From: Acidobacteriota bacterium
Lineage (GTDB): Bacteria; Acidobacteriota; Terriglobia; Terriglobales; Acidobacteriaceae
Direction of reading: 5' to 3'
Length of the DNA: 64,000 bases
Assembly: GCA_003225175.1 (NCBI GenBank)
Contig: QIBA01000066.1
Location: forward strand, 1 to 64,000
Made by a program: the position numbers and the translations under genes
Notes under the pieces: model-generated
Databases searched by the model: none
Told to the model about the DNA's origin: nothing
What the model saw: the letters and a program-made list of their open reading frames with translations, nothing else
In this document: positions 2,332 to 43,925 of the stretch, one piece after another
How positions within the stretch are numbered: position 1 is the stretch's first letter
How the letters are laid out: each line of letters starts with the position of its first letter

Positions 2332-3396
2332 ATGAAACACCTGGCAAAGTGGATGCTGGCTGGAGTTCTCGCATGCACGTTATCGGTTCTGCCGGCTAGC
2401 GCTCGGTCAAACGACCACCCTAAAGACGACCCAAAGGACCCGCAAACCCAACCTGTTCCTACCATCGATAACGTAAAGAAGGGCAGTCTCGACGATGTGA
2501 ATGCGATTGGCAATCGCGACATCGGCAATAAAGGCTTGGGGAATTGGTACTCGATCGAAAAGGAAGTCTCCATGGGCAAGCAGTACGCCCAGCAGGTGGA
2601 GCAGAGCGCCAAACTGGTGACCGATCCGGTGGTGAACGAATACGTAAATCGCATCGGGCAGAACCTGGTGCGCCACTCCGATGCGAAGGTGCCGTTCACA
2701 ATTAAAGTCATCGATGACGATCAAATCAACGCCTTCGCACTTCCCGGTGGCTTCTTCTATGTAAACACTGGAACAATTCTGGCCGCCGATGACGAGTCGG
2801 AGCTGGCTGGCGTTATGGCGCATGAGATCGCCCACGTTTGCGCCCGCCACGCCATGCGCCAGATGACGCGCGCTAATTGGGCGAACTTTGCCACCATCCC
2901 GCTGATCTTTATCGGCGGTGGAATCGGTTATGCGGCGTACGAAGCTGCCGGTATCGGCATTCCGCTCACCTTCATGAAATTCTCGCGTGGATTCGAGGCG
3001 CAAGCCGACTATCTGGGAACCCAGTATCTCTATGCCAGCGGCTACGATCCGCAGGCGATGGTCGACTTCTTCGAAAAGATCGAGGCTACGGAAAAGAAAA
3101 AGCCTGGCGCGTTGGCGAAGGCCTTTGCTTCGCATCCTGCGACTCCGGATCGCGTTGAGCATACGCAGCAGGAGATCGCCAGAATTCTGCCGCAGAAGGA
3201 TGAATACGTAGTTACCACTTCGGAATTCGATCAGGTGAAGGCGCGACTGGCGGCTCTGGAGAATCGTCGCAAAGTCATCGACGACAAGGACACGAGCAAG
3301 CCTTCTCTGCGTCGTGCGTCGAACAAGACGGATAAAGATGGCAAGACGACCGACGATGATCGTCCTACGTTGCATCGTCGTGATAACAACGACTAA
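2332..3396 (+). CDS. Exported M48-family metalloprotease
   Basis: A zinc metallopeptidase of the M48 (BepA/YfgC/LoiP-like) type, 354 residues. Members degrade or help assemble misfolded outer-membrane proteins in the periplasm. There is a signal peptide at residues 1-24, the zinc motif HEIAH at 164-168, and a third ligand candidate Glu222 in FEAQAD. The C-terminal tail is charged and repeat-like (SLRR ... TLHRR). The ATG at 2332 has AAAGGA just upstream; a GTG at 2293 is a weaker alternative. A strong terminator follows. A paralogue sharing the same core and tail lies at 19293-20591. Confidence 0.88.
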   Translation: MKHLAKWMLAGVLACTLSVLPASARSNDHPKDDPKDPQTQPVPTIDNVKKGSLDDVNAIGNRDIGNKGLGNWYSIEKEVSMGKQYAQQVEQSAKLVTDPVVNEYVNRIGQNLVRHSDAKVPFTIKVIDDDQINAFALPGGFFYVNTGTILAADDESELAGVMAHEIAHVCARHAMRQMTRANWANFATIPLIFIGGGIGYAAYEAAGIGIPLTFMKFSRGFEAQADYLGTQYLYASGYDPQAMVDFFEKIEATEKKKPGALAKAFASHPATPDRVEHTQQEIARILPQKDEYVVTTSEFDQVKARLAALENRRKVIDDKDTSKPSLRRASNKTDKDGKTTDDDRPTLHRRDNND

Positions 3397-40602: not shown

Positions 40603-40694
40603 GGATGGAGGTTAGCACAGGTTCTGTGATCGCTTGGTCATGGCGCAACTGATGCGAAGATGGAAGTGTTGAGTTGAACTGATCTTTGTCCTGC

Positions 40695-41549
40695 ATGCCT
40701 GAAAAAGTGGGTGACTATCGTGGTCGACTGGCGCCGTCGCCGACGGGACTACTCCATCTTGGCCATGCTCGAACTTTTTGGATCGCAGCGCAGCGTGCTT
40801 CAGAGTGCGGTGGATCGCTGATCCTCCGCAACGAGAATTTGGATCCGCAACGATGTCGCCCAGAATTCGTCGACGCAATGTGTGAGGACCTTCGCTGGCT
40901 GGGCATCCGATGGTCCGAAGGACCAGACTGCGGTGGACCTTACCCGCCATATTCACAGAGTGAGCGCCGGGACTTTTATCTCGAAGCCTGGCGCAAGCTG
41001 CGCGATGCCGGCGCCGTCTACCCGTGCACTTGCTCGCGCAAAGACGTTGCTGAAGTTGCTGCTGCTCCAAACAATGACACCGACGACGAGCCCATCTATC
41101 CGGGCACTTGCCGTCGTCGCACAGATGCATTTGCTTTCTCCAGTCCTGCGGGTGTTAATTGGCGGTTCCGCGTGCCGGAGGGTGAGCAGATTGTCTTCGA
41201 GGATGTAAATCTTGGTCCGCAACAGTACGTCGCCGGAAAAGACTTCGGTGATTTTCTGGTCTGGCGGCGCGACGATGTTCCTGCATATCAGTTGGCCGTC
41301 GTTGTCGATGATGCCGCGATGAAAGTCACTGAGGTTGTTCGGGGCGCGGATCTACTGAAGTCCACGGCCCGGCAGATGGTGATTTACCGAGCTCTGAGAC
41401 TGCAGCTTCCGCGGCACTACCATTGCGACCTTGCGCGTGACGAGTCTGGTAATCGCCTGGCGAAGCGCCACGACTCCCTAAGCATTCGTCGCCTGCGAGA
41501 GAGCGGATGGACTCCCGAACAGGTGCTTAAGGCGGCCGGCCCGGCATAA
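40695..41549 (+). CDS. gluQ: Glutamyl-Q tRNA(Asp) synthetase
   Basis: A 284-residue truncated glutamyl-tRNA synthetase paralogue that activates glutamate and attaches it to queuosine in tRNA(Asp). It has the HIGH motif variant HLGHARTFW, the lysine-containing KRHDSLS loop (KMSKS position) and a zinc-binding region YPCTCSRKD ... YPGTCRRR, and lacks the anticodon-binding domain. RNENLDPQR replaces the usual charged EDLD segment. The ATG at 40695 gives a good start (MPEKVGDYRGRLAPSPTG). It stands alone, convergent with the DUF302 gene. Confidence 0.9.
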   Translation: MPEKVGDYRGRLAPSPTGLLHLGHARTFWIAAQRASECGGSLILRNENLDPQRCRPEFVDAMCEDLRWLGIRWSEGPDCGGPYPPYSQSERRDFYLEAWRKLRDAGAVYPCTCSRKDVAEVAAAPNNDTDDEPIYPGTCRRRTDAFAFSSPAGVNWRFRVPEGEQIVFEDVNLGPQQYVAGKDFGDFLVWRRDDVPAYQLAVVVDDAAMKVTEVVRGADLLKSTARQMVIYRALRLQLPRHYHCDLARDESGNRLAKRHDSLSIRRLRESGWTPEQVLKAAGPA

Positions 41550-43370: not shown

Positions 43371-43925
43371 TCAGCTTTTCAGACGGCGCCGTTCACAGCT
43401 GATGACTACCGAGCTCGGATCGATGGCATCGCGATCTTTTTGCATCTCGACCACTTTGCCTTCTTTGTCGATTAAATAGGTGACGCGACGTGCGGCCTTG
43501 TAACTCGGGTTGTACACGCCGTATTCCTTGCTTGTGTCGCCGCCAAGATCGCTCAGCAGGGGGAACGTGACTCCAATCTGCGCAGCCCAGGCTTTGTTGG
43601 CGAACGGACTGTCCATGCTTACACCCAGCACCTGGGTGTCTGCGCCTTCCAGCTTCTGCAGCTGATCCTGGAAGGCTTTCATTTCCTTCTCTCAGCCGCC
43701 GGTGAAAGCGAAGACGTAAAACGCAAGGACCACATTCTTCTTGCCGCGAAAGTCAGAGAGCTTCACTTCTTTTCCGGTTTGGTCGCGCAACTTGAAATCC
43801 GGTGCAGTGTCACCAACCTTGATCTTTGGGTCAGGTGGGGAGGCCTGGTCAGCCGCGAAGGCCGGCAATAGGGTCATCAGAAAGATGGCTATAACAACAA
43901 AGCCAAGAATGGGTTTGCGCATCAA
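43371..43925 (-). CDS. Selenocysteine-containing peroxiredoxin, exported (in-frame UGA)
   Basis: One 184-residue AhpC/TSA-family protein is read if the TGA at 43692-43694 codes for selenocysteine. The order is: signal peptide ([24 protein letters not shown]), [24 protein letters not shown], the strand [14 protein letters not shown], then the TGA as residue 78, then [14 protein letters not shown]. In peroxiredoxins this exact place is the peroxidatic cysteine (FTGGC-TKE), so U fits the catalytic residue. The remaining fold ([22 protein letters not shown], then [19 protein letters not shown]) is intact. Selenocysteine peroxiredoxins (PrxU) are known. The alternative is a TGC to TGA nonsense mutation. 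A stem-loop follows the TGA. Confidence 0.8.
43644..43676 (-). promoter_or_regulatory. SECIS-like hairpin after the UGA of the peroxiredoxin
   Basis: In the mRNA, GCCTTCCAG and CTGGAAGGC pair perfectly over nine bases around a 15-base loop, starting 15 bases after the UGA. Bacterial SECIS elements lie immediately after the UGA within about 40 bases. The loop is larger than usual and an alternative pairing exists, so this is suggestive, not proof. Confidence 0.45.

Follow-up and report, generated by a model that had tools for sequence, protein, structure and literature searches.

An apparently exported selenocysteine peroxiredoxin of Acidobacteriota and a putative SECIS hairpin 60 nucleotides from its UGA

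A 64,000-nucleotide stretch of DNA (the window) from the genome of a soil Acidobacterium (Acidobacteriota; 98.9% complete, 268 contigs) carries a gene for an AhpE-type peroxiredoxin in which an in-frame TGA, at 43694-43692, almost certainly encodes selenocysteine. Two hairpins follow the UGA in the mRNA. We propose that the protein would be exported, that SelB would bind the distal hairpin, H2, and that the proximal hairpin, H1, would act as a spacer. From the sequence comparisons described below, we put the probability of this explanation as a whole at roughly two in three. The features are as follows.

43371-43922, minus strand: gene for an AhpE-type selenocysteine peroxiredoxin, apparently exported, 183 aa including U77 (ATG with AGGAG, PF00578, 85 orthologs)
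43854-43922, minus strand: apparent signal peptide, about residues 1-23 (by eye; similar N-termini in named relatives)
43692-43694, minus strand: UGA, predicted selenocysteine, residue 77, at the peroxidatic position (85/85 orthologs, 80/80 named loci among the best 80 of 137 relatives, alignment with the AhpE Cys)
43644-43676, minus strand: H1, 9-bp hairpin with a 15-nt loop, +16 to +48 after the UGA; proposed spacer (pair counts, codon shuffle)
43621-43639, minus strand: H2, 8-bp hairpin ACACCCAG-GUG-CUGGGUGU, +53 to +71 after the UGA; proposed SelB-binding SECIS (frozen codons, pairing, shuffle, loop consensus)
43395-43397, minus strand: Cys176, at U+99 in the C-terminal helix; proposed resolving residue (conservation; helix 170-182 in the model)

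The frame runs from 43922 to 43371 with the TGA as its sole interruption, just as an earlier examination of the letters without database searches (the sequence-only reading) had described it. The likeliest start codon is the ATG at 43922-43920, preceded at a distance of 6 nt by AGGAG (43933-43929); a TTG one codon upstream is less likely. The gene ends at the next in-frame TGA, 43373-43371. The read-through product matches the AhpC/TSA domain PF00578 over residues 37-160 with 135 bits (cut-off 26). The UGA stands in the context AFTGG-U-EKEM, that is, in a TxxU motif (T-G-G-U), and the codon lines up with the peroxidatic residue, a Cys, of M. tuberculosis AhpE, which bears out the catalytic position first assigned to it. 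AhpE, a 1-Cys peroxiredoxin (PDB 4x0x, 1xxu), is the closest solved relative both by sequence (E about 1e-28) and by fold. The best match of an AlphaFold2 model made from a 40-row alignment (pLDDT 86.7) is 4x0x, with Z 25.2 and rmsd 1.4 over 149 residues at 38% identity. The window protein differs from AhpE in having Sec in place of Cys at the peroxidatic site and in its first 30 residues, which have no counterpart in the matched AhpE chains. A 1-Cys peroxiredoxin has no resolving Cys in its chain, a role that the conserved Cys at U+99 of the window protein may have. This Cys is the only one after U in the named loci, lying at U+99 in 79 and at U+105 in the other one of the best 80 of 137 relatives, and the model has a helix at residues 170-182. 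A signal peptide is recognizable by eye in the window protein and in related proteins, in agreement with the export assumed in the sequence-only reading; the product is an AhpE-type peroxiredoxin of Terriglobia and is apparently exported. Established knowledge of the peroxiredoxin family, together with the structure model, points to peroxide reduction in the periplasm as the likely function: U77 would attack the peroxide, and Cys176 would probably resolve the selenenic acid of U77.

All four components that the sequence-only reading had proposed to look for, selA, selB, selD and tRNA-Sec (selC), are found in the source genome, and the refutation named there, absence of selB and tRNA-Sec, is thereby excluded. 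SelA scores 554 bits (curated cut-off 268), SelB 377 bits (cut-off 242) and SelD 371 bits (cut-off 125), selD carrying an in-frame TGA of its own. The tRNA-Sec reaches 64.4 bits with the Rfam model (cut-off 47) and is reported by ARAGORN as tRNA-SeC with anticodon tca. In 14 control genomes the same searches exceed their cut-offs in one (selA), two (selB), two (selD) and five (tRNA-Sec) genomes; with five of 14 over its cut-off, the tRNA-Sec search is the least specific of the four.

Orthologs are present in 85 of 200 genomes of the same family, one in each, at E 6.1e-38 or better. Each of the 85 has one in-frame TGA, at the same codon (84 AFTGGU, one AFTPGU), and to the question whether homologues have Cys or U at this position the family thus replies with U throughout. 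A search of 396 genomes of the phylum gave 61 matches (E 1e-30 or better), spread over 59 genomes; 60 of the matches have one TGA. The single match without it, L247, is a Cys AhpE-like protein that joins the cytosolic AhpE-like Cys proteins in the tree. A scan that covered 84,980 species, each with one genome, gave 137 relatives, of which the best 80 are all Acidobacteriota by title; all 80 of these named loci, which overlap with the loci of the family and phylum genome sets, have U at the site. No Cys ortholog of the exported selenoperoxiredoxin was found in the searches made (whole genomes within Acidobacteriota and the 84,980-species scan). Exported Cys proteins of relatives were considered as such orthologs and rejected: thirteen of the 20 Cys loci (L261-L263, L266-L270 and L272-L276) we take, by eye, to be PrxQ/BCP-like, and the three of these thirteen that were placed in the tree fall outside the family clade. 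SelA exceeds its cut-off in 81 of the 85 genomes that have the gene and in 36 of the 115 that lack it; these genomes are related, so that a Fisher value for the counts is no real probability. In the other four of the 85, one of which (G120) is rated 100% complete, no selA exceeds the cut-off. The near-certainty that we attach to selenocysteine comes from the Sec machinery, the TGA in 85/85 orthologs and the codon-frozen hairpins, which the TGA genes have and which are absent from all 21 Cys homologs.

The bacterial SECIS model, as given in review PMC13188914, has a loop 16-37 nt from the UGA, 3-9 nt long, with G in its first two positions and the form N1 G[G/U] N N2, on a stem of 4-16 bp. The stem of H1 is perfect in the window gene, GCCUUCCAG (43676-43668) pairing with CUGGAAGGC (43652-43644), and it is the 9-bp stem that the sequence-only reading saw 15 nt after the UGA, in the range that it expected of a bacterial SECIS. 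The stem stands above chance, given the TGA kept in 85/85 orthologs and a stability beyond that of codon shuffles; it is probably not the hairpin bound by SelB, for which H2, at 60 nt, is the likelier candidate. Among the family rows, 86.9% of the H1 cells are paired, C-G stands instead of U-A in seven, and synonymous sites are frozen (Gln CAG in 81/82, Leu CTG in 80/82). Only the inner 7 pairs are general across the family: of 83 distinct rows, 66 have the second-outermost pair broken and 20 the outermost. Paralogs and other families have hairpins at the H1 place that differ in sequence and register.

H2 (43639-43621) had not been mentioned before, and the range then suggested for folding, 43640-43695, stops just short of it. 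RNAalifold, given 84 aligned family genes, returns H2 plus six pairs of H1. In the arms of H2 the synonymous sites are frozen, with Thr ACC in 81, Gln CAG in 80 and Gly GGT in 81 of 82 genes, and in the same codon table the Val of the loop is free, using four codons. (L091 and L097, one codon shorter, were excluded from this table.) H2 pairing holds in 98.6% of the cells of the family rows and in 94.7% in 40 diverse genes; when the family pair count is slid along the alignment as a control, 92.5% paired drops to at most 44.4%. At pair 57-73, 23 of the 40 diverse genes have C-G and 14 have U-A; at pair 58-72, A-U and G-C occur in 19 genes each; the closing pair 63-67 is unpaired in 15. This count beats column shuffles on three of five measures, the two exceptions being the number of varying pairs and of pair types. 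The double changes largely split the family from the paralog, so that few events may lie behind them. Two alignments of 40 rows were used in this work, one of 40 of the 110 far genes defined below and one of the window gene with 39 of the 78 usable named loci.

Set against the loop and stem values of the model, H2 has a loop GUN or GGUNN, of which the GU is invariant, and a stem with a median of 8 bp and a minimum of 5. Its distance from the UGA falls outside 16-37 nt, being 60 nt in 107 and 57 nt in three of the 110 genes. H2 is thus like the bacterial SECIS consensus of review PMC13188914 in its 8-bp stem, its short loop with G then U, its N1-N2 closing pair and its stability, and unlike it in the 60 nt that separate its loop from the UGA and that contain another conserved hairpin. 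The Ser just after H2 (codon 25 after the UGA) is AGC in 75 of 82 family genes, and Ser codons vary more elsewhere; no partner strand for this codon was found in the family genes.

The TGA genes fall into two types by a rule that was written after seeing the genes: at least 4 bp at +24 (near) or at +61/+58 (far). Among 151 TGA genes, from which L247 (Cys) is excluded, 110 are far, with H1 and H2, and 39 are near, with a hairpin at +24 and without H2; none is both and two are neither, namely L243, with a 7-bp stem and its loop at +18, and L244, by eye a near type with a mismatch. The far genes comprise all 84 family genes L021-L104, all 16 cytosolic paralogs among the matches listed in the family search, and 10 others. 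The near type also occurs in the same family, in the distant member L105. In orthologs of other Acidobacteriota families the near element reads UAUCA-GGC-UGAUA, UACCA-GGC-UGGUA or UAUCA-GUC-UGAUA, with the loop at +24, an ordinary spacing.

Codon shuffling that leaves the protein unchanged (100 shuffles for each gene) gives the same division. In the family far genes the mean z is -1.99 for H1 (79 of 84 genes below -1), -2.06 for H2 (83 of 84) and -0.16 for the +24 site. The corresponding values are -1.77, -2.13 and -0.18 in the cytosolic paralogs and -3.07, -2.04 and -0.44 in the other far genes. In the 39 near genes the +24 site has -2.82, the H2 site +0.53 and the H1 stretch, which contains the +24 hairpin, -1.23. 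Two downstream control stretches have mean z from -0.24 to +0.63, except for about -1 in the cytosolic paralogs, in both stretches. The protein sequence itself favours H2, since the observed stem length is reached by 5% (family), 10% (cytosolic) and 9% (other) of the codon shuffles; that of the +24 stem is reached by 0.7%. None of the 21 Cys homologs, 13 of them more distant with another peptide at the site and eight AhpE-like, including L271, has more than 3 bp at +24 or at the H2 site.

The codon before the UGA (43697-43695 and orthologs) is GGT in 77 of 82 family genes, as against 91 of the 797 GGN codons in the rest of these genes; the context of the stop codon may be the cause. The window gene is among the five with GGC, and the near-type genes mostly have GGC (29/39).

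A covariance model whose structure was limited to the H2 pairs, since the register of H1 differs between paralogs, gives two strong matches per genome, all with E at most 2.7e-24, in six of six genomes of the genus, with the next best match at E 0.0017 (150 of about 2400-3200 candidates were scored per genome). In the source genome the two are the window gene and a cytosolic Sec-peroxiredoxin on contig C63. This second Sec-peroxiredoxin (L107:2161-2238, minus strand; G000:C63:17859-18275) has the motif DWTPTU, no signal peptide seen and the same two-hairpin arrangement, and shares its contig with selA. Besides the peroxiredoxins, selD (L018) and a formate dehydrogenase-like molybdopterin gene (L204) of this genome are Sec genes. 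The fdhA-like gene has, by eye, GGUGCCCA-GUU-UGGGUACC after its UGA (L204, 1609-1611), with the loop at +20, and selD has a GGC SECIS loop at +21. Both loops have an ordinary spacing, unlike that of H2, and it follows that one SelB would serve both distances. The apex of the fdhA SECIS, CCCAGUUUGGG, is close to that of H2, CCCAGGUNCUGGG, and H2 therefore looks like the usual target of this SelB, unusually placed.

We infer, then, the following mechanism. The SelA, SelB, SelD and tRNA-Sec of this genome would insert selenocysteine at UGA codon 77. SelB would bind H2, with its loop beginning at +61, and H1, between the UGA and H2, would when folded shorten the path by 33 nt and leave an effective distance of about 27 nt from the UGA to the SelB loop, inside the canonical 16-37. 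It is plausible that H1 folds away the extra distance in this manner. The effective spacing calculated without the H1 fold is 27 nt in the window gene and 17-31 nt in 110 of 110 genes (median 25). Since the codon shuffles give 16-37 nt as well, in 2111 of 2200 cases, this spacing is only consistent with the spacer idea, and it was dropped as evidence after that control. Only the stability of the intervening fold differs, with a mean of -15.4 kcal/mol as against -8.9 in the shuffles. With slightly less assurance than for the window gene itself, we favour the more general statement that a SelB-type SECIS about 60 nt from the UGA works if an intermediate hairpin shortens the path, and that the SECIS moved between +24 and +61 within one family, probably more than once, while the UGA stayed fixed and one SelB served both spacings.

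The alternative that survives best accepts Sec insertion and makes H1 the true SECIS, of a non-consensus class bound by SelB, with H2 as an accessory that slows the ribosome or stabilizes the region. H1 begins at a usual distance (+16) and has, in the window gene, a perfect 9-bp stem and a loop beginning with G, and codon constraint acts on its region; furthermore, distinct bacterial SECIS classes exist according to review PMC13188914, and reviews, this one among them, mention some bSECIS elements outside the model. We nevertheless consider this reading unlikely, at somewhat less than one part in four of our belief. The loop of H1 has 15 nt, as against 3-9 in the model, and the family does not keep its G, and register and sequence of H1 vary between lineages, in contrast with the invariant GU of the H2 loop. 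It is also H2 that resembles the fdhA SECIS of the same genome, and the existence of genes with a canonical +24 hairpin and without H2 suits H2 as the replacement of that hairpin.

More doubtful still is that H1 and H2 stack coaxially or meet in a junction, as one larger element to be read in its entirety by SelB or the ribosome. The stems are only 4 nt apart in the window gene, and both are absent from the near-type genes (compare the positive z at their H2 site), as would suit a single unit. RNAalifold, applied from the UGA to +90, finds no enclosing helix in any of four groups, and longer stretches gave helices that differ between the groups; that is, no outer helix around H1 and H2 is conserved. 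(L091, L097 and L248 were excluded from this fold.)

That the TGA arose by a nonsense mutation, or that a short gene ends there, is very improbable. Nothing was found in favour of it beyond the stop itself, and it is contradicted by the TGA kept in every family ortholog and named locus, by the frame and C-terminal Cys conserved beyond it and by the Sec machinery; the sequence-only reading had judged likewise that a nonsense mutation was improbable. General recoding of UGA to another amino acid, with which an open frame would agree under any code that reads TGA as a residue, is ruled out for practical purposes, since a TGA also terminates this very gene, the site is that of the catalytic Cys in homologs, and tRNA-Sec and SelB are present.

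The relationship of near and far genes was considered in a tree with 95 rows, made up of L105 and 17 of the 84 family genes L021-L104, 51 phylum rows including L247, 16 cytosolic genes and 10 of the 20 Cys loci. (Of the 61 phylum matches, six were already in the set, and those of G314, G281, G322 and G353, of the same genus as others taken, were left out.) Support is 100/100 for the far exported clade (families f1 and f26), which is nested among genes of the near type; five changes are needed to account for the far label, and strong branches force at least four of them. In a tree made without the 26 SECIS-bearing columns, the clade again has 100/100, the support for its nesting is 62/73, and the far label needs five changes, two of them forced. 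A repeated origin of the far type is likely, given five changes in both trees with four and two forced by strong branches, and the direction for the exported gene was likely from near to far. The ancestral state would probably be one ordinary hairpin with its loop at +24, as still found in other Acidobacteriota families, and H1 and H2 would stand instead of it in the window lineage, some other families and the cytosolic paralog. The peptide (T/A)QV(L/V)G, present also in AhpE-like Cys homologs, spells CAG-GUN-CUG. Since it already spells most of the H2 hairpin, H2 may arise easily and the far site may have been reached repeatedly for this reason. L271 (genome G125), a Cys protein that lacks H2 and falls within the cytosolic Sec clade in the tree, is probably a natural Sec-to-Cys reversion.

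The enzyme belongs to an already known kind. TxxU selenocysteine peroxiredoxins are listed in review PMC13188914, which cites the Eubacterium acidaminophilum enzyme. The window protein is like these in its AhpC/TSA domain with Sec at the peroxidatic site in TxxU, and unlike them in being apparently exported and AhpE-like, with one conserved Cys at U+99 and a distal two-hairpin SECIS. The name PrxU, given to it in the sequence-only reading, is apt for a TxxU peroxiredoxin and does not extend to the NCBIfam PrxU equivalog NF040737, against which the protein scores 79.4 bits, far below the cut-off of 270. What is new is a member of the kind, and the two-hairpin, 60-nt arrangement as a bacterial SECIS variant. 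A bacterial SECIS with two hairpins, or one at 60 nt, was not found in a literature search that covered, in the parts accessible, PMC13188914, PMC1794560, PMC12013277, PMC5029168 and PMC1914089 among others, and no exported selenoperoxiredoxin of Acidobacteriota was found in the same search, which also took in PMC8659212, PMC9312934, PMC4513850 and PMC1088965; supplements, most subscription papers and the original bSECISearch paper lay outside its scope.

Bacterial SECIS elements are commonly taken to sit right behind the UGA, as in PMC13188914, and a distal SECIS with a spacer hairpin could account for part of the misses by the published model. It would also allow a clear test of the way in which SelB gauges distance on the ribosome. 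Near and far genes within one genome offer a natural comparison: in G549 an exported gene of the near type (L225, +24) and a cytosolic gene of the far type (L252, +61) occur together. To this is added an apparently exported selenoenzyme.

The neighbour genes of the peroxiredoxin in the window encode an aminotransferase class V protein, a TetR regulator and an AMP-binding ligase, none of which points to a partner. The aminotransferase class V protein (PF00266; 41994-43286, minus strand) adjoins the peroxiredoxin gene and has, by eye, a twin-arginine-like start. Further along, at 40686-41549 on the plus strand, lies a short class I tRNA synthetase catalytic domain (PF00749), presumably a glutamyl-Q-type synthetase.
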